Made by a program: the position numbers and the translations under genes. From Epinephelus fuscoguttatus (Eukaryota > Chordata > Actinopteri > Perciformes > Serranidae), in assembly GCF_011397635.1 (NCBI RefSeq), contig NC_064761.1, positions 43,178,143 through 43,242,142 on the forward strand: a stretch of DNA of 64,000 nucleotides, written 5' to 3'. Under the pieces are notes generated by a model that saw only the letters and a program-made list of their open reading frames with translations, did not search any database and was not told the origin of the DNA. Below, one piece after another: positions 1,287 to 61,984 of this stretch (positions within the stretch are counted from its first letter, which is position 1; each line of letters begins with the position of its first letter).

Positions 1287-4200
1287 GTTTTGCTCGTTCT
1301 TTCGGCATGCGGCTGGCTAATGGAGAGCGGCGAGAGTGGATTAAGCCAATCATGTTCAGCGGTGGTCTGGGCTCTATTGAAGACACACACATACAGAAAG
1401 AAGAGGCGGAGGCCGGTAATGTTTTAGCCCAGTGTGTGTGTGGAATGTGTTTAATCGATGCTGCGGCTATATTTACACACATCCATTAATGACTCACGGC
1501 GTCTCTCTGCTCCTCTGCTCTACTTGTCGATCAGGAATGGAAGTGGTGAAGATCGGAGGGCCGGTGTACAGGATCGGCGTGGGAGGAGGAGCGGCCTCCT
1601 CTGTACAAGTACGTGTGCTACAGTAAATCACACAGCAGCGACCTCACCTGATGTTTCGGTGTGTTGAAATACATGTTGGCTTGCAGGTCCAGGGGGACAA
1701 CTCCAGTGACAGAGATCTGGGTGCAGTGCAGAGGGGAGACGCCGAGATGGAGCAGAAGATGAATCGTGCTCTCAGGGCGTGTTTGGAAAGAAGCAGCGGG
1801 AACCCAATCTGCAGTATCCATGATCAGGGGGCGGGAGGAAATGGTGTGAGACATGGGCTCTTTTCATGATTTATGTAAAGCTTTGATGATGAGACAAAAA
1901 TGAACATGTTGAATCACATTGGCATCTTCAGGTAATGTGCTTAAGGAGCTCAGTGAGCCAGCGGGAGCTGTAATCTACTGCAGTAGATTCAAGGTAATGA
2001 GCACATGAACACGTCTCCAAACACATTCTGCTGCTTCTCATTTTAATTCACTCCGACTGTTTCCTCTTATTGTTTACTTTTCCCTCCATCTTTGTTTTAT
2101 AGAAAGGTGACCCCACACTGAGTGTGCTGGAGCTGTGGGGGGCAGAGTATCAGGAGAGCAACGCCCTGCTGCTCCGTCCATCTGACAGGAGCTTCCTGGA
2201 GAGGGTGTGTCAGAGGGAGAAGTGTCCCGTTGACTTTGTGGGAAACATCACTGGAGACGGCAAGGCACGTTTCAGCCTGGATCAAGTCAATAAAAGCACA
2301 TCCTCTGCACAAATCAATACGTTTTAATGATCAGTGGTTGTTGGCTGGGTCATATAAGCTCAAGTATCACACTACAACCCAGTCATACCCTTTATAGGTA
2401 CTTTACTGTTTTTGTAAGCTCAAAACAAAAATGTAGTTTTTGAACAAGCTGCAGTCAACAAGCGATTCTGCTCCTCTGCTCTTCTCTAATTATACAAAGA
2501 GTGCTTCTGCCTCCCTGCTGAACCCAGGTGCACTCTTTCATTCGGCAGATATTAATTAAACATGAATCAGTACACCATAGTACAAACGTAATTCGGTTGG
2601 TATCCATAAGTACCAAGTCCAGCACACGACCCTGTTCGAGATCAGCATCATTTGTCTTTATTTCGGTCTTAATTTCTGCTACAGATTGTGCTGGTGGATG
2701 ATGAGGGAGGCAGCGGTGATGAAGCCGACAGGAGGCGCCGTCCTGTCGACCTGCAGCTGGAGTGGGTTCTGGGGAAGATGCCACAGAAGGTGTTTAAGAT
2801 GGAGCGTCTGGCCTCAACCCATCAGCCTCTGGCTCTTCCTGCGGGGCTGAAAGTCAAAGATGCGCTGGACAGAGTTTTACGTTTGCCCGCCGTGGCGTCC
2901 AAACGCTACCTGACCAACAAGGTGTGTTTTCCATCCTCTCTGTCTTTAGAGGTACATTTGTGCAGACACTTTGTGACTCTCCGTGTCTTCACTCCCTCCC
3001 TCCCTCAGGTGGACCGGTCTGTTACTGGGTTGGTTGCCCAGCAACAATGCGTCGGCCCTCTTCACACCCCATTGGCCGACGTAGCCGTTGTTGCTCTGTC
3101 ACCGTTCAGCCTGGAGGGAGCAGCCACTGCCATCGGAGAGCAGCCAATTAAAGGGCTGGTGTGTCCCACAGCCGGGGCTCGCATGGCTGTTGGAGAAGCT
3201 CTGACCAATTTGGTGTTTGCCAGAGTCACAGCTCTAAAGGTGAGAGGCTGACGAAGAGTGTGAGGAGAAGCACAGATAGGACAGATCAAAATACTGCACA
3301 TAATGATCCTGTTCGAGAGCGTACTTCAGTACTGAATTATCTCTGTTGTTGAAGTCCACTTCAGTTTGGAATTGGTTTTTCCTTTTTTTAAGTGAATTCT
3401 GGTAAATGTGGTGTGTTTTCAGGATGTGAAGTGTAGTGGTAACTGGATGTGGGCTGCTAAGCTGCCTGGTGAGGGAGCCTGCCTGTGGGAGGCCTGCAAA
3501 GCCATGTGTGAGGTCATGGGTCAGCTGGGAGTGGCCATCGACGGGGGCAAGGACTCTCTGAGTATGGCCGCTAGAGTGGGGAAAGAGACGGTCAAAGCTC
3601 CAGGTACACTCACTGTGTGTCCCTGTGTGTGTTTACATGCGTCTGTGTATGTGTCTTCATTAAGCTCAGCTCTTCCACTGCTTCTGTTTCAGGTGCTCTG
3701 GTTATTTCAGCGTATGCTGTTTGTCCTGACATCACAGCCACTGTGACGCCCGACCTCGAAGACCCAGATGGAAAAGGTATTTCTTTCTAAAGGCCCAGAT
3801 GTACTGAAAGCAATAATTGATTTGCCTCATTCGATGCACGTCACTTGATGCTCCTGTGGCGCACTGCAGCCATCAGATGTGAAATGGCAGCACCACAGAG
3901 GTTACAGGTTCCTCCATTAACGCTCGGTACATTTCTGTTTGCGTCATGTTATATGAAAATGTACAACCACAGAATCAGCAGGATTTTGGTTACAAGAGGA
4001 AGAAGATTTTAAGAGTTTATTAATCCCGGAGGAGAGATTCAGTTTTTTTTCACTTTGTTGTCACATACACAGGCCGGAAATACACACATTCACCAACAGG
4101 ACCTATACATGCATTATATAGAAAGATGTCAGAGCGAGGAGAGGTTTAATGCCTCACTCAAGGGCACCTTGGCAGTGCCCAGGAGGTGAACAAGCACCTC

Positions 4201-7200
4201 TCCAGCTACCAGTAATATTACATAAATATATATATTAAAGGTTATTCACTTCACCTGTCAGTGGTTTGAATGTTTTGGCTGATCAGTGTGTACACATACA
4301 CACACACATATATATGAGGCAGGAGGGTGTGTGCTGCTGCTTTTGTCAGTTGGATGGCAGTAGAAAAGCTGTAAAGCCACTGGGGACCAGCCAGCTCATT
4401 TCATCTTTTATTTTTTCTTCCAAGTGGGTGAAAGTCACATAAAGCACAAACTCTGAACCCATCAGCTGTCGGTCTGATGACAGTCGGCCTCTGGGGGCAA
4501 CAGCCAATATTCAGAGGTTCCAGTGCACCTAGTGCAGGGGAAGGCAACCTGCGGCTCCAGAGACACATCCTGCTCTGTAGCTCCTGTGATTATGTTTTTA
4601 ACATTTAAATGTTCATATACCAATGAAGTGATTCTTACATTCTTCAGTTGTAAACATTTATAGCCTACACACCAGAATATTCAAATGTTTCAACATTTCA
4701 TCTAAAATGTGTCTCATACATCTACTTCCTGGTGCTTTTCCCCTAGATTGTGCTAAACCTGAGTAGCAGTGGCGAGTCTTGAGTCTCCCTCACCAATCTT
4801 GCTTTGGGTTTCAAATCCAAAAGGAAAAGTCTTTTTAATGGTGCATGGACATATTCATTTACTGTCACCACTAACGCTGCAAAGTTAAAGTACTAGTACT
4901 ACAAGCAGCCACCTTGTGGTGAAACATGTTGGATGCTGATTAAGACCGGTTAGTGATGTTGTTAGGATAATGTAGACTCAGTAGACCATGTTACCTTCTC
5001 TATAATGCTCAGATATGATCAGCGGCCCCAAACAGATTTTTATTACCTCCTTGGGTCAAATGTGGCTGACCCCTGACCTCGCAGATATCTGGGCCAAGAC
5101 CTCCTCTTCTGTGTGCTGGTCATTTTGGCTGATCTATATAAACACATATCTGCATTTGATCGTAGAGAAATAAAACTAATTAATACAAAGTTAGATCATC
5201 ATTAGACTATAGCCGATGGGTGCAGAGATTGCATTAAGTCCGAAGCGTTCCGCCTCTCCACACTGACTGTTTACGTGCCGCTCAAACAGGATTGGTCTAT
5301 ACGGTAACACTTTACTTGAAAGTATCTACATAAGAGTGACATGACACTGTCATAACTATGACATGACACGGTCATGAACCTGTCATGAACATCATGTACA
5401 TGTCATTAATGTTTATGACTGCTGTCATTAAGTGTCATTCGGTTTTTGTAATGACAAGTTGACATTAAATTTGTTTGGGATGTCCTTATAATGACAACTT
5501 GACATTAATCAAAGTGACATTACCAGAAGATGTCTTTGTCATGACGAGTTGACATTAAATTTGTTTGGGATGTCCTTATAATGACAACTTGACATTAATC
5601 AAAGTGACATTACCAGAAGTTGTCTTTGTCATGATGAGTTGACATTAAATTTGTTTGGGATGTCCTTATAATGACAACTTGACATTAATCAAAGTGACAT
5701 TACCAGAAGTTGTCTTTGTCATGACGAGTTGACATTAAATTTGTTTGGGATGTCCTTATAATGACAACTTGACATTAATCAAAGTGACATTACCAGAAGT
5801 TGTCTTTGTCATGACAAGTTGACATTAACAAGAAATGCACCTCTTTTTATGCTTATGACAAGTTGACATAATCATTGATACAAAGACATCTTCTGGTAAT
5901 GTCACTTTAATTAATGTCAAGTTGTCATTATAAGGACATCCCAAACAAATTTAATGTCAACTTGTCATGACAAAGACAACTTCTGGTAATGTCACTTTAA
6001 TTAATGTCAAGTTGTCATAATCAAGACAACCCAAACAATGTCAACTTGTCGTTACAAAAACCAAATGACACTTAATGACAGCAGTCATAAACGTTAATGA
6101 CATGTACATAATGTTCATGACAGGTTCATGACACTGTCATGTCATAGTTATGACAGTGTCATGTCACTCTTATGTAGACACCTTCAAGTAAAGTGTTACT
6201 GTCTATGCTACTCAGACTACAAACAGAAACCAGAACACTCCAGATCCCAAAATCTTGTTCAGTTCCCAGCAGATTGTACATATGCATATCTATTTATGGA
6301 GATCACATGATGTACAGCTGATTAACTCTGTACTACGTTAAATAATGGCTGCTGTTAGCTTTATGTAGCAAATTAGGTTCAAAGACCAGTAAACATTCAT
6401 ATAGAATAGATGATATTAGGTGGGTCTGTTATGCTAACATAACTACCAAGGGTTTAAGCTGTTATTTTAGTATCTGACATGTGACAACACCGTGGCTAAG
6501 ATCTATACAAGTATCCATTGGCAGTGGGAGTTGTTTCAGCACTGCTTATATTGTTTATAAAGTTTAAAGCTAAGCTAAGCTAATGTCAGCTGTCTTTTTT
6601 TATTTCCTTCGCTTTTTTATTTTTACTGTCTCAGGTTCAATCCATACAATTATCCTAAACAAAGATAGTTATACAATGTGACAAGGAAACAAAAAAGACA
6701 AAACAAAAACAAAAAAAGCCGTCAGCCGTTGCCATAGTATCAGTACACAGCCAGTAAACAAACTAAATGAGTAGAATGATTTATTGGCTCTTATATTGGC
6801 TCTTTAAAACAGATCAAAAGACACATGGTAAGTCAATAAGCATAAGTTCATCGAAACAATAGCTTTGGTCACTGGAGCCTCATTTGATGTTACAAAACTG
6901 AAACAAGGTCAGTTTGTGCGCCTCATAATGTTTTTAGTGGGTGTTGGGTCATTTAAGACAATAGGTGGTTTTCTTTTAAACACTCAGCAGATGCACACAC
7001 ACACACACACACACACACAGACTCAGTTATAATCAGAGCATATGTGAGATTGTTCTGTTTTCATAGTTACGAAAAGTTTTATTCTTGGCAGAAATACAAC
7101 TTCTGAATTTGAAATATCCTCATTTCACCCAGGCTGCACACATCTCTCTCCAGCAACCACGCACACACATTCCACACACACTCCTCAGTAACAGACTCTG

Positions 7201-10200: not shown

Positions 10201-13200
10201 ATTATTCTTTGATGACTGCATTAATCATTTGGTGGATAAAATGTTAGAAATAACAAACATATAGCCTTCACAGTTTGCCAGAATATACACTCACCGGCCA
10301 CTTTATTAGGTACACCTGTTCAACCGCCTGTAAACACAAACAGCTAAGTAGCTAAGCATGTTGTAGCATTTAGTCATGTAGACATGGTGAAGACGAACTG
10401 CTGAAGTTCAAACGCAGCTGATGCCAGAGGTCAGAGGAGAATGGCCAGACTGGTTCAAGATGATAGAAAGGCAACAGGAAGTCAAATAAGCACTGGTTCC
10501 AACCAAGGTGTGCAGAAGAGCATCTCTGAAGCAACAACACCTTGTCCAACCTTGAAGCAGATGGGCTACAGCAGCAGAAGACCACACCAGGTGCCACTCC
10601 TGACAGCTAACAACAGGAAACTGAGGCTACAATTCACACGGGTTTTCTCACCAAAACTGGACAATAGAAGATTGGAAAAACCACATTCAGATGGAAGCAT
10701 GGATCCATCCTGCCTTGTATCAACGCTTCAGGCTGCTGCTGCTGCTGCTGGTGGTGTAATGGTGTGGGGGAGATTTTCTTAGTACCAACTGAGCATGGTT
10801 TAAACACCACAGCCTACCTGAGTATTGTTGCTGAGCGTGTCCATCCCTTTATGACCACAGTGTACCCATCTTCTGATGGCTACTTCCAGCAGGATAACGC
10901 ACCATGTCACAAAGCTCACATCATCTCAAACATGACAATGAGTTCACTGTACTCCAATGGCCTCCACAGTCACCAGATCTCAGTCCAATAGAGCACCTTT
11001 GGGATGTGCTGGAACGGGAGATTCTCATCATGGACCAACATCTCTGAGGAATGTTTCCAGCACCTTGTTGAATCTGTGACATCAAGAATTAAAAAGGAGT
11101 CCAACCTGGTACCAGCAAGGTGTCCCTAATAAAGTGGCTACTGAGTGCATGCCAGATAAAACTGGTCTGACCAGCATTAAAAGACAAAAGTCTTCAACGC
11201 AGTCAAGTTTAAATCGTTCAGTCATTTTAACCACTAAGTGTTTGATATGTGATTCTTTAGGTGCAGGCCAGCCTCGTGTAGCTGTGGTCAGGGAGGAGGG
11301 CAGTAATGGAGATCGAGAGATGTCTGTGTCTCTGTATATGGCGGGCTTTGAGGTAACTATTTAAAGCTTCATTAGGTGGATTATATGTTGACGCTGGCTG
11401 TGTTGCTGGTGTGTGTGACTCCTGTCTGTGTCTTTGTGTAGGTGTGGGATGTCAACATGCAGGACCTGTGCTCCGGCTCTCTGACTCTGGAGTCGTTCAA
11501 AGCAGTCGTGTTCGTCGGTGGATTCAGCTACGCAGACGTTCTGGGATCAGCTAAAGGCAAACAGCAGCACTACATACACATGCTCACAGACCACTTTGAT
11601 ATACAAATCCTTTTTGTGTAACACCATCCATCCTTTATAACAGGCTGGGCTGCTACTGTTGCATATAACCCCAAGGCCAAGGCTGAGTTCGATCGCTTCC
11701 GGCGGCGGGATGACACACTAAGTCTAGGAGTGTGTAATGGCTGCCAGCTGCTGGCCCTGCTGGGCTGGGTGGGAGAGGGCGAGGACGGAGCAGGTACAAG
11801 GAAAAGGCACAGTAATAATAACAACAGGGAAAACAACACTGTAGTAATGAACGAGACGACGCAGCAGCTATATGTGAAAACATCATCTCAGAGACCTTTT
11901 ACAGAGGCTAGTTTAAAATACTTCTTTCCATTTCTCCCCCCAGAGAGTGAAGTGGTGCTGACCCATAATAAGTCTGGCAGGTTTGAGTCTCGATTCATCA
12001 GCGTTGGGATCCAGGAGTCTCCGTCCGTCTGGCTCAGAGGCATGGAGGGCTCAGCTCTGGGAGTCTGGGTCGCACATGGAGAAGGTAGAGTATTGTAACA
12101 TCAATCGTCTTTAATTTGTCACACAAGTTGCCAAAACTGGTGCTTGTAGTTGTAAGTTCTGATAATAACACCAAGCGGTGACGGATTAATGAGACAGAAA
12201 TGCGGCATTGTATCTTACGCCTACCACACAAGAAGACTTTGCAAAGACATCCTCTCACATCTAAAGACAATGCGAGTTTTTAGTCACACACTTTAGGATT
12301 TTGCAAAGACTGGAGGATTTTGCAGGGTCACTGTTTACAGACTACAACTAGATTCCTTTTGAGATAACTTCCCAAATCTTACACCAAACTTCCCTCAAGA
12401 AATGTGACATACTAACAATTCCTTACACGTAAGCAAAAATACGCAACTCTTGAAAGATAAGATGAAAGGCGTCTTATGTCGACAGTATCTTTGTCAATTC
12501 AGCATCAATACAATCCATGCAGATAAACTCTGTTTGTGAACAAACTTTACATTTTGGATTGTGTCTCCTCTACCTCTACATCAGCCTCCATTGGGAGCGG
12601 TCATACTTTAGTGGGACTGAGAGGTGAACTGTTTCAACAATTAAAGATTTCTCACTAAATTAAGAGCTGGATGGTGGAACAGATGCATGTGGAATTAAAC
12701 ACTGGCACTGTTGACTCTAAGGTTGGGCAACATGGCCCTAAAATGATACTGCGATATTTCAGGGCATTTTTGTGATAATGATTTTCTTGATGGTGTGACA
12801 AATTAGTACAAAATTTATTATTGATTTATGAAAATGATCTCTCATTTCTTTAGTTTGTGAACAACAACAGTGACAGATTCAGATTCTGTGGTTCAGCCAA
12901 ATAAAATCTACCACAATTAAACAGTCCCCAAATACAGAAAATGTCCCCTGGGGTCTAATACATATAAATCAACAGGTGATTTCCTTCTCTGTTTTTATGC
13001 TCTGCCATTTCTCCTCTAACCATCACGCTGTGACCTGTGACAGGCTGTTACGATACCACAACTATTACACATTCACATATATGTAGTTTTTTTGTTGCGT
13101 CACGAGCATCGCGTAGGTTTACATTACCAAAGGTTTGTGACAGAATCAGAGAGGAGAGGGAGAGACGCTGTGCTGCTGCCAGAGGAGCCGCTGAATGAGT

Positions 13201-24599: not shown

Positions 24600-25392
24600 C
24601 TTGTCTGCATCCTACAAGATCATTGGTCCACAGGGGGAGCCACAGCCATCGGTCGCATTTTAGCCATTTTGAAGCATTTTTCTGTTGTTATAGCGCCACC
24701 CAGTTGCCAATTAGAGTTAAATTTCTCCAGTCACCTTGAGGCGTCCTGTTCTACATATCTACCAAGTTTAGTAAAAATCCATATGGCGGTTAGGCCTAGA
24801 TAAGAAATGAGCTCTCTAGCGCCCCCATTTTGTTTGATGGGCTCAATAATGGAGGGGTCCCCTCAGATTATGTGTGGTCATATGCCTACAAAGTTGCGTG
24901 GTGATGGGTGAAACCCTTGAGATGTTCTACACCTTTATGTGATGAGCCACGCCCTCCGCAATATTCATTGCCTTATAGAAGCTCAGTTTTAGGAAGTTTT
25001 CCAACTTTTGCCAAGAGGGAACTTTAGATATTGCTCTCTAGATTATGTTCACCCAGTTTCATGCAGATCGCTCAAACTTCCTAGGAAGAGATCCATTTGA
25101 AGTGTTTTTCAAAAAATTCAAAATGGTGGAAAATCTATATAAGCGGAAGTTATGGGTTCTTGAGGCAAATGTGTTCCTCATGAGGAGAGGCATCTCTGTG
25201 CAAAGTTTCATGTCTCTACGACATACGGGGCATGAGATATGCCCATTCAAAGTTTGACATTTCAATGGGTTGCTATAGCGCCCCCCTTTGGCCAATTGAT
25301 GTAATATTGCTTCATTGGCATCCTCCCATGACCCTCTACCACTGTGCCAAATTTCACATGGATTGACCAAGTCAGTGAGGAGAAAAACGTGG

Positions 25393-25458
<66 letters not shown>

Positions 25459-25479
25459 TTTCGTCATTATACAGTAAGA
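24600..25479 (-). mobile_element. Helitron-like nonautonomous element, long copy
   Basis: Read on the minus strand, it begins TCTTACTGTATAATGACG preceded by A and continues through a CA/TG tract into GTTCCACGTTTTTCTCCTCA. From 25036 to 25396 it is nearly identical to 61301-61656. It carries more interior (about 24660-25030) than the copy at 61 kb. No CTRR 3' end was found, so the lower boundary is approximate. The minus-strand frame of 130 residues across it is not a gene. Confidence 0.6.
25397..25454. repeat. (CA)29 microsatellite inside the Helitron-like copy
   Basis: An uninterrupted CA run at the point where sister copies carry only about 4 to 12 units. Confidence 0.95.
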
Positions 25480-32900: not shown

Positions 32901-35900
32901 GTATGTGTGTGGTGTACAGAGTAGAGAGAAAAGGAATTGTCCATCAGAATCCAGTTGGGTTAAGGCCCGTCGGCTGAACAATGTTTAATTATTGCCCTGC
33001 CAAGTCTCTGACAAAGGCAGAGTCCATCAGAGAGCCTCGCGGGGAAATCAATGTCGGTAGTGTTACATTTGGAAGTGGGATGCCAGTGCTGAAAAATGAT
33101 GAATGCTGCAGTCAGCGTGTGTAGTTCATGAATCTCTCATTCTGTTTACAGAATACATTCAGATCATCATGACCTTGGAGGAGTCTGTGCAGCACGTTGT
33201 AATGACAGCCATCCAGGAGGTCAGTCCATCTTAACACCAAGTGTCTCCCTCACTCAGATTAGAGATGTTAAAGATATCCAGTACAGCTTAGCTCAGCAGT
33301 TGTACATTTTTGATAACTGTAGCTGTGTCAAAGGCACAGTAGTTGTTGGTGGGGGGCAGAGGGCATACTGCTTGTGTTCAGGTAAAATAGGTGGAGGCTT
33401 TGCAGCTATTCTAATGAGTGTGTGTGATCCATAAACCCATTTTTCCTCTCCAGCTCATGAGTAAAGAGATCATGGCCCCATTTGGAGCAGAACCATCAGG
33501 GGACTTGGAACAGCAGGTCAGTGTTATTACGACAGAGACTCCCAGCTGGGAAATCTCCTTTGTGTTTGAACAGAGTTGGTACTGTCTGCTGTGTGAAGGC
33601 CTTTACACACCAAGGCTGTGTTTTTCTCTTGTGTCTTTTTAATCCATCATCAGATAGAAATGATTGCACACAGGAACCTTGCACACTGAGTCCAATGCAT
33701 TTTATTGTTCTGTTTTTTTCCAAAAAATTCTCAGTACAAAACAAAATGGAAAGACACATTTGCTCCCTTGCTTCTCTCCACTGGAGGCACCTCCCTGCCT
33801 GTCACCACTCTCTCCTCCTTTCACCTCCTCTCTACCTGAAGTGGCTGAGCTGTCCTCTCTCTCTGTCTCTGTCACTTTCTTTTTCTCTGTCTGCATGTGC
33901 TCTTCGGCCTCCTTTTCATCCTCCTCTTTGTCGTCGCCATCCACCTGAATATTACTATCTCACCTGTTGTAGGCTTTCTGAGTCACAAAATAATACTGTG
34001 CACTTCCTCTCTTTTGTTGCAAATGTATGTGTCTCCTGCAGGTCACATTTGTTTTTCACTGCCTCTTTGTCATACAACGCTCTAAAGGGTTTTGATGGAT
34101 GCAAAAAAACTGCAGATAATTGAACCTGTTCTGAAAACTCTGATGGATGAATTTTCGGAGTTTCGGAGTTGGTGTGTAAATGTGTTTGACTGAACATGAG
34201 GTCATATTTATTTTTCAACGTGCAATGATTTTGGATGAAAAATAAGGACTTGGTGTGTAAAGGTCTTTATTCTCTAACCAAGGGAATTTAAATTGTGTGA
34301 TAATAAAATTATTTATTATAATTACTAGTCCATACCCACTGAGTGTGTTTGGGATACAGGTCATAGGAAATTGCAGATTAAATAGTCAACTGAACCCTTT
34401 AAGAAGAGCAATGTATTCAGACAGAGTTTTTGTGAATTTGATAGTATGATTGCTTTGTTGAAAGTACAGTAGATTGACCACGTCAGTGAGGAGAAAAACG
34501 TGGAACAGACACACACACAGAATTTTCGTCATTATATAGTGAGATAACCTAAATCACTCCAAAAAGAACAAAACAAGAATCCCTGAAAAGTACATAACAT
34601 TCAAACATTAATGTAATGATTCAAATGATTTAAAACAGCTTATTTTGTATCACCAACAGTCATACAGCCTACAGGTGAATTTATTATGATATATGTTGGA
34701 GACAGTAGATCCTCACCTCTTGAGAGGCAGTACTAGGCTTGAGCGGTATCACAGTATTAAGGTATACTGAGGTATTTCGAAATCCCAGAGGTATGATTTT
34801 AAATACTAGTAAAACTTACAGAGCTCCTCTTTTTGTTGAACTGATACAGAGACACTGTTGTTAAGGTGATGCAGTGCACAGCACAAGCCACCAGAGGTCA
34901 GTCTCTACTGGTGTAACAGGTAGCTGAGCTGAGAAAGATGGCGAGTGGTGGGGAGAATGTTACAGGCCTTGTAAAAAGCTGGTCAGCAAAGGCAGAGAGA
35001 AACAGCGAGCATGTGTTCACGTCTGACTCTGTGAAATACGGGTTTATTATGAACAAACCAGAGCTGGTGATTGTTGGAGCAAAGGAACAACGAACCAAGA
35101 TGTTTTTTCTGAGTTTTGTTTCTTGCGGGTTTGAAAGTGTGTTCTATGATGAGGTAACAAGGAAATTATCGTAGTCTTAGTTTGGTGAAAGAGAGAAACA
35201 AGAAGTCAGAAGGTGTCTGTTGTTTTTTCTGTTTAATGAGGAAAATTGATGTAACGATGTTCCTCTTCTTCACATATGAGCTTGTGGAACGTAGGGAACT
35301 CGCTGCTCGCTACCCAAGCCTAGGCAGTACCTAGCAACTGAATGAAAAATGTAATTAATAATCAAAAAAGCTTGTTAACTCTCGGTTGGTTTGTCAGTTT
35401 ATTAAAGGGAAATTTCGGTTTATTTCAACCCATCTCCTATCGTTCTAAATTTGTTTCAAGTGACTAGTGACATAGAAATAATAGTTAGCATGTTAGCCGT
35501 TAGCCTAGATACAGCCAGGGCGCATAGTAGCGTCAGACCTGTTAAAACGTAAGTGAACGGGCAACCTTCAAGTGCAAAGTTAGTCCACTAAACAAGCTTT
35601 TTTCCACAAAGACCGCCTCATATCGTTAGGATAAATGTCAGAGAACATATAGAAAACGACATGTAAACGTGTTGTCTTACCTTACCGGTGTGCTGCCATG
35701 TTTGTTGTTTACCATTTAACGTTAGCTAAGACTGCAACCGGTCCCATTCCTTGCAACAGAGGCATTCCTCTTCTGTGGGCACTGGGGCACAGCATTCACA
35801 GGTACACCACCAATCTCCAGAGCTACGCAGCCTTGCAGCAGCCACTCCTCCCCTCTCGTCCTCTACCTGTTGCGCCTCGCTCTCTCCTCTTCTGTTCTTC

Positions 35901-37416
35901 AATTTCACGAAGCTCTTCGTCAGTGTATTCTGGCTCAAATAAATAAGGGCGGCCATCAAACTCTGCAAAATCAAATTCGTCCTCCACAAAGTCGAAGTCT
36001 GGCAAAAAGTCAGCCATTATTCTATAAATCTTTCATAAAATAAATGAATGAACTTTTCAGGCTACTGTCCGGTTCTGCCTTCCAGCTGTTGCTGCTTGTT
36101 CTCGCGAGATTTCAGGCACGGTATGAGATCGCTGCTTGTTCTTGCGATATTTCGGCCGCGCTTTGGGAAGCAGAGCTAAACGGTAAACACACCATAAGGT
36201 AAGACAACTCTGAAGACCACCTAAATGTGAAATGTTAGTATATAGGCTTTCCACATCGAGAGTCGATGGCTGCCCTTATTTATTTGAGCCAGATTACACT
36301 GACGAAGAGCTTTGTGAAATTGAAGAATGGAGGAGGAGAGAGAGAGAGGCACAACAGGTAGAGGACGAGAGAGGAGGAATGGCTGCTGGAAGGATTTAGC
36401 TCTGGAGATTGGTGGTGTACCTGTGAATGCTGTGCCCCAGTGCCCACAGAAGAGGAATGCCTCTGTTGCAAGGAATGGGACTGGTTGCAGCCTTAGCTAA
36501 ATGGTAAACAAACATGGCAGCACACCGGTAAGGTAAGATAGCACGTTTACATGTCGTTTTCTATATGTTCTCTGACATTTATCCTAACGATATGAGGTGG
36601 TCTTTGTGGAGAAAAAGCTTGTTTAGTGGACTAACTTTGCACTTGAAGTATGCGCGTTCACTTACGTTTTAACAGGTCTGACGCTACAGCTGTATCTAGG
36701 CTAACGGCTAACATGCTAACTATTATTTTTATGTTACTAGTCACTTGAAACAAATTTAGGACGATAGGAGACAGGTTGAAATAAACCGAAATTTCCCTTT
36801 AACTTAACCCGTCAGCTCTAATGTTCTGTATAAACTGCATAAGTCACCAGTCTAACATTCAGTCAGCATCTCAGCTAAAGTCAACATTACCATTTCAAAG
36901 GAGTCACTCCAACCTGGAGTATCCCATCACTGAGGCGTTTTATTCTCCTTGATCTGTTTGACCGCTGTGCAGAGAATCCCAGTGCTCGAATTTTGACTGT
37001 CACTGCACAGCTCCCTGAACAGGCAGAGGCTGGGCAGGATGAGTCCTCTGTAACAGGCTTGACATTGAGTAAAAATTGAACATGACTTTTCATAAAGAGG
37101 AGGTGACGGTTATAAAAGTGTGTTAAGACCATTTGAGCTTCCTGAGCAGCAGAGTGTTGCAGCAGAACCAGTCGATAAGTTGAAGTGAATGTACGTGTTA
37201 GTTAATTCTGCTTTTTCTTCAGCTGAAAAAAGCCCTGGAGGAACTCTCTGAACTTGTGGCAGAGAAGGAAGCATTAGCCCAGCGCTGTCAAGAGCTCGAC
37301 GTACAGGTGAATACAAACTTATGCACACACTACATTAATATACATTGATGTGATGCATTTACAGCCGTCTAGCCTCAGTGCTTTCTGTAGGTTTACCGAT
37401 ATTCAGCTCTTTATGT

Positions 37417-37469
<53 letters not shown>

Positions 37470-40400
37470 TGCCTGTGGTACAGTATAAACAGGAGTTGTG
37501 TAATTCGCTGTGATGCTCGGGTCCATTGTCTGGAGCTGCTGTGGCAGAAGGACTGTGGGCTTAGAGTCTGGGCTCTGCTGGTCCCACTGTGGCACCCAGC
37601 CCATGCTCTGCTGCTGCTAGAAGGCCTCACTCTTTACTGTACAGGCAGGCTACATGTAGCACAGCCACTGATCAACTGTTCAACTGGACTCTCGACAGAT
37701 TGATTTGTTCTGTCACCAGTCTTGCTCATCTCTCGCCGCAGCTAGGTAAGTCCAACATGGCTGACCATCCGACCAAACTAAACCCTTCTAAACCGGCTGC
37801 TCGAATATTAACTCTAACTCAGCTAACAGATGGCTCAGTCAGGATTCTGTTCGAGACGAGTCACGCAATGTGTTTCTGTTTGTAATATTTTGTGGTGATC
37901 CTCTAGTAATTCACCCGGGAACATCTGTCTGTCATAATAACCATTTTGTCATCTTCTTCTGGTAAAAGCAACGTTGCATTATTTTGTAATGCATATTGTT
38001 CTGTGTGAGACTGTAAGTATAGTTCATAGAATAAGAGTTAAAGATAGTTCAATTCCTGTGATAATGATGATCACATCTTGTTATCAATTACAGAAATGAT
38101 TCCAAGCAAACTGAACACGAAGGCAACAATATGAATGATTGAAGTTTATTTTACCTGTGTGGGAAGTTATGTCCATTGTAACGCTCTATATAATATTATC
38201 ATATTTTACTGCATAGAATATACACCAATCAGACATAACATCATGACCACTGACAGGTGAAGTGAATAACACTGATTATCTCCTCATCGTGGCACCTGTT
38301 GGTGGGTGGGATATATCAGGCAGCAAGTGAACGTTTTGTCCTCAAAGTTGATGTGTTAGAAGCAGGAGAAATGGGCAAGCATGAGGATTTGAGCGAGTTT
38401 GACAAGGACCAAATTGTGATAGTTTGACGACTGAGTCAGAGCATCGCCAAAACTGCAGTTCTTGTGGGATGCTCCCAGTCTGCAGTGGTCAGTATCTATC
38501 AAAAATGGTCCAGGGAAGGAACAGTGGTGAACCGGCGACAGGGTCATGGACGGCCAAGGCTCAGTGATGTACGTGGGGAGCGAAGGCTGGCCCGTGTGGT
38601 CTTATCCAGCAGACGAGCTACTGTGGCTCAAATTGCTAAAGAAGTTAATGCTGGTTCCACCGCTGAAAACGGCAACAATGGGCACGTGAGCATCAGAACT
38701 GGACCACAGAGAAATGGAAGAAGGCGTCCTGGTGTAATGAATTGCGTTTTCTTCAACATCACGTGCATGGCCGCGTGTGTGTGTGCGTCGCTTACCTGGG
38801 GAACACATGTCACCAGGATGCACTATGAGAAGAAGGTAAGCCGACGGAGGCAGTGTGATGTTTTGGGCAATGGTCTGCTGGGAAACCTTGGGTCCTGCCA
38901 TCCATGTGGATGATACTTTGATACGTAGCACCTACCTAAGCACTGTTGCAGTCCTTGTTCACCCTTTCATGGAAACGGTATTCCCTGATGGCAGTGTCGT
39001 GGTTCAGGAATGGTTTGAGGAACACAACAACCAGTTTGAGGTGTTGCCTTGGCTTCCAAAATCCCCAGATCTCAATCCAATCTAGCATCTGTGGGATGTG
39101 CTGGACAAACAAGTCTGATCCATGGAGGTCCCACCTCGCAACTAACAGGACGTTAAGGATCTACTGCTAACGTCTTGGTGCCAGATACCACAGCACACCT
39201 TCAGAGGTCTAGTGGAGTCCATGCCTCAATGGGTCAGGACTGTTTTGGCAGCAAAAGGGGGGCCTACACAGTATAAGGCAGGTGGTCATAATGTTATGCC
39301 TGATCGATGTCAGAAAAATATTGTAACTTCAGTCATGATATTGGTTTGAACCATGTAGCTCTGCTGTCGTTAAAGGTTGTTTGTAGATATTTTGTATGCA
39401 GGATTTTTAAACAACGACGAGTTAATGTCCAACATCAGGGAAATGATGGGAGAGAAGTCAAACTAACTAACCGTGTATTAACATGTTTGCTTAAAGTGCA
39501 CTTTGTCTGTGCTCTGCTGCCAGCATGGATTAACTGCACTGTTTGCTTTAACAGCTGGGAGAGGAAGAGAGTTGTCTGTCGGTGTGTCTTTTGATGCTCA
39601 GATGTGACTTTGCTGCTTTGCACGAAATAATTGACCAAAGAGAGATTTAACATCACAGTTTCTTTCTGCTGACTCGACACAAATATTGTGTTTGTATATT
39701 TAATTCACCTTAACTTTGTTCACATTGTGTCACTTGTAAGAGTCGGTCCAAACCTTATTGTACCTGGACAGGTGGCGGTTCTTCAGGAGGAACGGAACAG
39801 CTTGTTGGCTGAGAATGATGTCCTAACAGACCGAGCCAATCAGCTGGACACATTTGACGACCCAAGCACCCCCTCAGGAAGAAAACACAGCCAGCTGCAG
39901 CAACAGTTAGAGGCGCTGCAGGAAGAGAACTTCAGGTGGGTCTCGATCTGCTTAGCAACAACCTCGTTATGGGTGTAGAAGTCTTAACAGTTATGTGTAT
40001 GTGCACGATTCAGGCTGGAGGCTGCCAAGGATGACTACCGGATCCACTGTGAAGAGTTGGAGAAGCAGCTGATCGAGGTTCAGCACCGTAATGACGAGCT
40101 CACCAGCCTGGCAGAAGAATCTCGAGCCCTCAAAGATGAACTGGACGTTCTGAGGTTTGTGTGGAATAAACAACCACTTTCTTTCTTCAGGGAGCAGCAT
40201 ACAAACATCTTTTGTTGCCTCTAAATGAGGAACTAGCTCTTCAGTTAGGTGGAGGAGGAAGGTCAGCTCATGATTTCACTGATTAGCCCCTCTCGTCTGG
40301 TTGAGGGTTTGTTAATCAGTGAAATTAGCTGATGTTTTGTTTGGCTGGAACAAAAATCAGCATTCAGATTTCTCTGCACTGACCTTGAGAGAGTAGCTTG

Positions 40401-59765: not shown

Positions 59766-59945
59766 ATGAGGTGGGGGAGCCCATCTGTGTGGAGTTTGCA
59801 TGTTCTCCTGTTCTTCTGCGGGTGCAGGTTAATTGGTGACTCTAAATTGTCCGTAGGTGTGAATGTGAGTGTGAATGGTTGTCTGTCTCTATGTGTCAGC
59901 CCTGTGATAGTCTGGTGACCTGTCCAGGGTGAACGCTGCCTCTCG
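59766..59945 (-). repeat. Common teleost interspersed repeat, copy 2
   Basis: Reverse copy of the repeat at 755-1030. The shared core reads GGACAGGTCACCAGACTATC on the minus strand. Confidence 0.6.
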
Positions 59946-61052: not shown

Positions 61053-61693
61053 CTAGTCCATACCCACTGAGTGCACAGTTGCCCATGTACAGTTTCACAT
61101 GGTGTGTGTTTGGGATACAGGTCATAGGAAATCGCAGATTAAATAGTCAACTGAACCCATTAAGAAGAGCAATGTATTCAGACAGAGTTTTTGTGAATTT
61201 GATAGTATGATGTCCGATGTACGATTTCCTTAACCTGCTGTCCTGCAATTCGGCCACAGGGGGAGCCACAGTGATCGGTCGCAGAGATATTGGTCCCTAG
61301 ATTATGTTCACCCAGTTTCATGCAGATCGCTCAAACTTCCTAGGAAGAGATCCATTTGAAGTGTTTTTCAAAAAATTCAAAATGGCGGAAAATCTATATA
61401 AGCGGAAGTTATGGGTTCTTGAGGCAAATGTGTTCCTCATGAGGAGAGGCATCTCTGTGCAAAGTTTCATGTCTCTACCACATACGGGGCATGAGATATG
61501 CCCATTCAAAGTTTGACATTTCAATGGGTTGCTATAGCGCCCCCCTTTGGCCAATTGATGTAATATTGCTTCATTGGCATCCTCCCATGACCCTCTACCA
61601 CTGTGCCAAATTTCACATGGATTGACCAAGTCAGTGAGGAGAAAAACGTGGAACACACACACAGTTTTCGTCATTATATAAGATATAGTAAGA
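61053..61693 (-). mobile_element. Helitron-like nonautonomous element, well bounded copy
   Basis: On the minus strand it begins TCTTACTATATC (preceded by A) and ends GGGTATGGACTAG (followed by T), 641 bases. A short inverted repeat CACTCAGTG lies 9 bases before the CTAG. Its interior matches 25036-25396 almost base for base, and its 3' part matches 34325-34450. Confidence 0.75.
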
Positions 61694-61984
61694 TGAAAAA
61701 TAAATAAAATAAAATACAAATAAATTTTAAAAAAGCATTATCAAGTTCACAATTATGTGACACACCGACGTCTTCCCCAACACACACACTTAAAGGGGGC
61801 TTTACATTACTTAAACTGTTTTTCCTGTTGTTCAGTAAAGGCTATCTTGAACCAGGCACTCAGTTACCATCCCACATAACCAGAGTGGACTGTAGTTAGT
61901 AGATAAAAGATATGTTTATTTTATCTTGGAAACATCGTCTTCTCCTCTGTCTACAGATGCACAGATCTGGTTTAGGTCAGCCAG

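Follow-up and report, generated by a model that had tools for sequence, protein, structure and literature searches.

How does a stretch of DNA that is almost wholly palindromic, lies between TTAA sites and carries a P2X7-like cysteine motif in both arms come about, and does it carry a working protein domain? The element in question occupies positions 35402-36802 (1401 bp) of a 64,000-nucleotide stretch, which we call the window. Aligned by BLASTN with its reverse complement, the element shows an inverted repeat with arms at 35402-35957 and 36265-36802, identical at 508 of 559 aligned positions (90.9%, 24 gaps; 774 bits), whereas none of 200 first-order Markov controls gave a self-inverted match above 50 bits. 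The outermost 29 bases of the element, TTAA counted, are exact inverse complements, and the TTAA copies lie at 35402-35405 and 36799-36802. The DNA encoding WWCTCECCAPVPTEEECLCC is the same in both arms and reads outward in each. These results confirm the structural part of the original prediction, namely a near-palindromic element between TTAA sites with exact inverse termini and an outward-reading cysteine motif in each arm.

Kol0 elements of the Kolobok superfamily encode a second protein, KolX, that is similar to the C-terminal ballast of P2X7 (PMC9587614, 2022). Using KolX as the reference for the coding parts, the element is composed of the following features:

35402-35405, no strand: left target-site copy, TTAA (sequence; TTAA on both sides of most full-length copies; empty site of one copy)
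35406-35718, plus strand: left terminal inverted repeat (TIR), starting AGGGAAATTTCGG (alignments; genome-wide terminus count)
35727-36017, minus strand: KolX exon 1 copy 1, start codon at 36017, reading outward; frameshifted and cut after the cysteine cluster
35958-36264, no strand: non-palindromic spacer with KolX codons 1-21, 5' region, TIR-like stretch and filler (alignment)
36100-36109, no strand: TCTCGCGAGA, a promoter-type motif (1 match in the window against 0.01 expected)
36179-36208, plus strand: short TIR-like stretch at the rearrangement junction (reading of the alignment)
36209-36264, plus strand: filler, confined to the palindromic form (39 of 39 fetched palindromic copies, 0 in L048-L074)
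36265-36495, plus strand: KolX exon 1 copy 2, from about codon 22, reading outward; stop ahead of the cysteines
36495-36798, minus strand: right TIR, ending CCGAAATTTCCCT (alignments)
36799-36802, no strand: right target-site copy, TTAA (sequence)

On the inside the arms are unequal. The start codon and codons 1-21 of the KolX exon are present in arm 1 only, the exon of arm 2 begins at about codon 22, and the 307 bases separating the arms are non-palindromic. As it stands, the arm 1 exon closes at 64 amino acids from its start codon without meeting the cysteines in frame, and the frame of the N-terminal part in arm 2 runs into a stop ahead of them. By reading, the element holds short open reading frames only, none of them transposase-like. 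TCTCGCGAGA, whose class of promoter-type motif is named in PMC6192621, suggests that KolX may be driven by a CGCG-element promoter near the TIR.

To gain insights into the family, the genome holding the window (1.05 Gb, 26 contigs) was searched with the whole element, which yielded 142 matches, with the best 40 of 1924 candidates scored. The spacer part 36019-36264 matched at 40 scored places of 1675 candidates with 93-100% identity. We fetched 39 copies from outside the window (L009-L047), all picked by their similarity to the window copy. A copy counted as full length if one BLAST match covered the query from base 1 to base 1399 or beyond, which applied to 22 of the fetched copies and, together with the window copy, gives 23. 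The other 17, which are truncated, interrupted or, as L029, end at 1394, did not enter the target-site and arm tests. Of the 23 full-length copies, 20 are flanked by TTAA on both sides, and each of the remaining three has one base changed on one side, so that the full-length TTAA-flanked copies initially proposed as a BLASTN check do exist in the host genome. The 150-bp flanks showed no match between different copies; extending the flanks to 300 bp brought up, for some copies, matches of 35 to 304 bp to other loci or to the window, which we took for other repeats. Copy L028 is inserted in a Tc1-like repeat (labelled by reading) of which the window holds an uninserted relative at 10778-10958, and its joined flanks align across the empty site in this paralogue, TTAA against TTTA. 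Full-length copies have a mean pairwise identity of 94.9% and diverge from their majority sequence by 3.0% on average.

The first 26 bases of the element, TTAA included, matched the genome 1439 + 1437 = 2876 times with at most two mismatches, and the reversed control 0 times. Among the 100 terminus matches listed, 21 neighbouring head-to-head pairs lie within 15 kb of each other and are 631 to 2257 bp long, 14 of them measuring 0.99-1.25 kb, and no neighbouring divergent pairs were seen among these 100. With 1401 bp, inverted ends, no transposase and 2876 termini in the genome, the window element has the hallmarks of a MITE. A search of IMG/VR with the TIR pattern and the exon returned no relative.

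TTAA targets had at first been read as a sign of either piggyBac or Kolobok, and the termini decide between the two. After the TTAA the window element reads 5'-AG...CT-3', and left ends among the matches listed start AG or AA after the target site. PiggyBac-type termini begin 5'-CC, which is not what is found here. Kolobok elements generate TTAA duplications and have 5'-RR/YY-3' ends, unlike piggyBac (Kojima and Bao 2022, PMC9587614), and both the 4-bp TTAA target-site duplication and the 5'-RR and YY-3' termini are present in the window element, which is a copy of a non-autonomous Kolobok transposon. The T2-MITEs of Xenopus, taken as Kolobok MITEs in PMC6004289, likewise combine a TTAA target with high copy number and no transposase, and their end motif AGGRR is fitted by AGGGA in the window. 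The window family differs from them in the KolX exon within its arms and in its near-full palindrome.

Related loci in the same genome reveal what the palindromic form may have been built from. L071 (1151 bp) and L072 (1235 bp) have window-type ends and a single KolX exon, which reads past the point where the window exon is cut; we refer to this arrangement as the base form. A 34-base marker of its further KolX stretch gave 930 genome matches. The pattern of its inner TIR border gave 800 + 740 matches but can match twice per copy and was therefore not used as a copy count. The 2257-bp TIR pair was considered as a possible autonomous copy and rejected, as it is a base-form copy with an insert of about 1.08 kb in one end. 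This insert, at L069:220-1296 within one TIR, shows an apparent 8-bp duplication and is presumably hAT-like.

A much longer relative at C2:1699729 (L073/L074) has ends that are 88-91% like those of the window element and lie about 9.2 kb apart. One of its strands carries KolX exon 1, which lacks a stretch close to its start, and a second KolX exon; the opposite strand carries, facing KolX, transposase-like exons and two pieces of a split THAP. The transposase-like exons are conserved with L068 (tblastx E 7.5e-49), where KolX likewise faces such exons. Pfam recognised neither the transposase exons nor the THAP pieces of L073, so the THAP of this element rests on tblastx to L068 (E 7.9e-6), and NCBIfam gave no match for three L073 readings. 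The reading frames of L073/L074 are broken as they stand, and its right end is split by an insertion of about 2.5 kb in the right TIR (L073:6664 to about L074:2278). The proposed search for transposase-bearing relatives thus succeeded in part: putative transposase remnants are present, but in broken frames, and the direct donor element was not found. L068 also contains, at 3148-4627, a separate TTAA-bounded unit with inverted ends of about 273 bp (TTAAAGGGATAGTTAGAC), in which a weak KolX-like stretch faces a THAP exon (45.2 bits); this unit is probably another Kolobok deletion derivative.

Taken together with its relative, the window family resembles the Kol0 lineage with KolX (PMC9587614) in its TTAA target, its 5'-RR/YY-3' ends, a KolX with P2X7-ballast cysteines and, in the relative, putative remnants of a THAP-type transposase. 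Unlike Kol0 elements, the window copy has no transposase and holds only a truncated KolX exon, twice and inverted.

The relation to P2X7 was examined with protein profiles. Pfam P2RX7_C (PF20478) matched arm 1 at profile positions 52-101 of 192, weakly (E=0.0069, 16.8 bits) and below the 23.5-bit cut-off. The open exon of L069 gave E 0.0015 and 18.9 bits, also below the cut-off, and three shuffles and the reversed sequence of that exon gave no P2RX7_C match. The anticipated match of the cysteine motif to a P2X7 profile is accordingly present but weak. Three readings of the window element matched no Pfam family besides P2RX7_C. Scores over the cut-off came from the second KolX exons of relatives: 30.4 bits for that of L068, which also matches the KolX of L073 (79% over 34 amino acids), and 31.9 bits for that of the long relative at C2:1700659-1700817. 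Genome-wide, PF20478 yielded 148 matches at E up to 10 (150 of 228 candidates scored), and none of the 14 control genomes had a match. Compared by BLAST with 20 KolX loci (L048-L067, with about 1.5 kb per side), the element gave short chance-like matches only, not its ends. No credible match was found in the PDB for the exons of the window element, of L068 KolX or of L069. The strongest P2RX7_C match of the genome, 216 bits at L048 (G000:C6:43142617-43143069), is probably the host's own P2X7 receptor gene. With the ballast of the P2X7 receptor (PF20478; PMC7016195) the window family shares the first cysteine cluster, the stretch matched by the profile; it differs in that the rest of the ballast domain and any receptor sequence are absent, and no complete ballast domain joined to a P2X channel was found in the three readings of the element.

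Two other identities for the element were weighed on this evidence. It could be a piggyBac-type MITE, which would share the TTAA target sites, but the 5'-AG ends are of the Kolobok type by the rule of PMC9587614 and led us to reject this reading. A cysteine-bearing KolX is a Kolobok feature as well, as is the putative THAP transposase of relatives, and the piggyBac proteins similar to KolX are described without most of the cysteines (PMC9587614), which makes a piggyBac origin hardly credible. The other possibility is that a transposon captured the domain of a host P2X7 receptor as cargo. The cysteine motif does match P2RX7_C, yet the PF20478 matches in the genome include KolX genes facing transposase-like exons in L068 and L073/L074. 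Moreover, the open exon of L009 is far closer to L068 KolX (44% over 73 amino acids, E 1.6e-17) than to L048 (E 0.029). KolX has already been described as a Kolobok protein, and P2X7 has been argued to have arisen by fusion with the KolX of a transposon (PMC9587614). We therefore regard capture as extremely improbable. Where the original prediction had offered a captured or a natively encoded domain, it is the second that stands: the P2X7-like domain is native to the transposon, in line with KolX in PMC9587614, and nothing points to capture. A P2X7 domain in a transposon is also a published observation (PMC9587614).

What sets the window family apart is its palindrome. Set against the base form, the window form lacks the innermost part of the left TIR and the final KolX stretch. 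Its other end carries in addition a short TIR-like stretch, a filler of about 56 bases and, ahead of the TIR, a second KolX exon. All 23 full-length copies and all 39 fetched ones, which were picked for their resemblance to the window copy, contain the filler; L048-L074 all lack it. A 31-base filler marker matched the genome 74 + 75 = 149 times, with 0 matches for the reversed control. Given the same filler throughout the fetched copies and these marker matches, the structure seems to have a single origin and to have spread from there. The suggestion that this particular copy was made by head-to-head duplication is not borne out, as the palindrome is ancestral to the subfamily with 149 marker matches.

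The explanation that best accounts for the whole, with a probability of roughly 0.86, is a palindromic non-autonomous Kolobok of the Kol0 lineage that formed by deletion and a single repair event and spread in trans. An ancestor of the C2:1699729 type would have had inverted ends, the start of KolX just inside one end and the start of a THAP transposase just inside the other, pointing at KolX. Internal deletion would have reduced it to about 1.15-1.24 kb, leaving a pair of long inverted ends and a single, truncated KolX exon 1. In one event, most likely when a break within or beside one end was repaired, such as a gap left after excision, the end with the KolX exon may have overwritten the opposite one, a switch on the way accounting for the short filler and the result being TIR-exon-spacer-exon-TIR. 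Transposase acting in trans on the shared ends could then have mobilised the palindromic form into TTAA sites, to about 150 copies, while the arms went on exchanging sequence and the KolX pieces presumably travelled as passengers.

The repair step is modelled on Galileo of Drosophila mojavensis, in which 'two recombinant TIR' copies have been explained by break repair templated on the opposite end (PMC3573991). As Galileo shows the same change, we adopted break repair by analogy as the likely mechanism for the palindrome. Both families have drawn internal sequence into their inverted ends (TIR1-F1-F1-TIR2 in Galileo) and show exchange among copies (PMC3573991). Galileo differs in belonging to another superfamily and host, and in the window family one junction has spread to 149 marker matches and the recruited stretch is coding. 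This suggests that the extension of inverted ends by internal sequence also occurs in Kolobok and may swallow a coding exon.

Exchange between the arms was assessed in the full-length copies. The arms of the majority sequence are distinguished by 6 of 547 positions, at which the same two main bases segregate in both arms. A minor base occurred in four or more of the 46 arms at 50 sites, of which the 20 outside CpG were used. Agreement between arm 1 and arm 2 within a copy was 0.752, compared with 0.642 (sd 0.020) after random re-pairing, and 0 of 5000 permutations reached the observed value; with all non-CpG sites, this was 0 of 2000. Fifteen changes were private to both arms of a single copy, compared with 186 confined to one arm; these counts include CpG sites, at which the same change can recur. 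Sequence has thus moved between the arms, either directly or by way of other copies. The alleles of the palindromic arms also occur in the base-form copies examined (L069-L072), so the permutation result fits arm exchange and conversion in trans alike. As one genome contains about 150 copies that share a junction, along with a larger base form, the family offers material to measure arm-to-arm exchange.

The shared alleles could also be taken to mean that palindromes formed from the base form repeatedly rather than once. The same filler in 39 of 39 fetched copies, found as they were by similarity to the window copy, argues against this reading, which we consider very unlikely. A further proposal is compatible with the single repair origin, which concerns how the palindrome arose, and addresses why it was kept: the hairpin of its transcript might silence KolX or the family. 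If read through in gonads, the element would yield long double-stranded RNA matching the family ends and KolX exon 1, and a repair derivative would have become a dispersed silencer of its own transposon. The Mu killer locus of maize is a known case of hairpin-type silencing of a transposon family. In favour of such a role, the single-stranded transcript is predicted to fold almost end to end (-1047.8 kcal/mol, a value without a shuffle control at that length), and the likeness of the arms is maintained through exchange; if the proposal were true, arm-to-arm exchange would keep the silencing hairpin near-perfect. However, the arms hold no recognised transposase sequence, the 149 marker matches look like ordinary transposition, and every long-TIR element folds in this way. 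Both the retention of the palindrome for silencing and its conversion into a dispersed silencer are, in our view, unlikely.

This leaves the question of whether the KolX exon works in its present state. Counted from the start codon, 3 of 23 arm 1 exons (L009, L017 and L026) remain open through the cysteine cluster, with one cysteine changed in L017; in L011 and L027 the start anchor found nothing. In codons 1-44, the non-synonymous share of changes was 0.84 compared with 0.74 expected if neutral, an expectation that uses the transition rate of the spacer and does not model CpG. This share is not below the neutral expectation, and the exon therefore shows no sign of purifying selection. Divergence was 0.032 and 0.031 in the exon parts and 0.033 in the spacer, with somewhat lower values in the TIRs (0.025 and 0.028). 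The domain of the window family ends after the first cysteine cluster and is mostly broken, and so does not look like working cargo. A working KolX cargo was rejected for the window family on the basis of the three open copies and the missing sign of purifying selection. Judged from the sequences, the KolX pieces would be passengers, probably lacking a function.

In summary of its standing, the initial observation at this locus is real and its interpretation partly supported, the element being mostly of a known kind and revealing no new system. The window family adds a fish family to the KolX-bearing Kolobok elements thought to be the source of the P2X7 ballast (PMC9587614). A palindromic KolX form is not mentioned in the abstract, Background or section 12 of PMC9587614, nor is the palindromic form described in the titles and abstract openings returned by literature searches on KolX, palindromic or MITE Kolobok and the origins of palindromic MITEs.

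As to its surroundings, a HOOK-type exon lies to the right of the element at 39673-39975 (Pfam HOOK, 63.0 bits), and a likely earlier exon, seen by reading and not recognised by Pfam, at about 37222-37305. The element is thus probably located within or just before an intron of a HOOK gene. Elsewhere in the window, 10405-11092 and 38428-38913 are Tc1-like transposase remnants by reading, and two minus-strand readings at 25059-25463 and 61318-61737 share a long nearly identical stretch, a repeat. An inverted pair of 118 bp, 98% identical, lies at 760-877 and 59823-59940, 59 kb apart.
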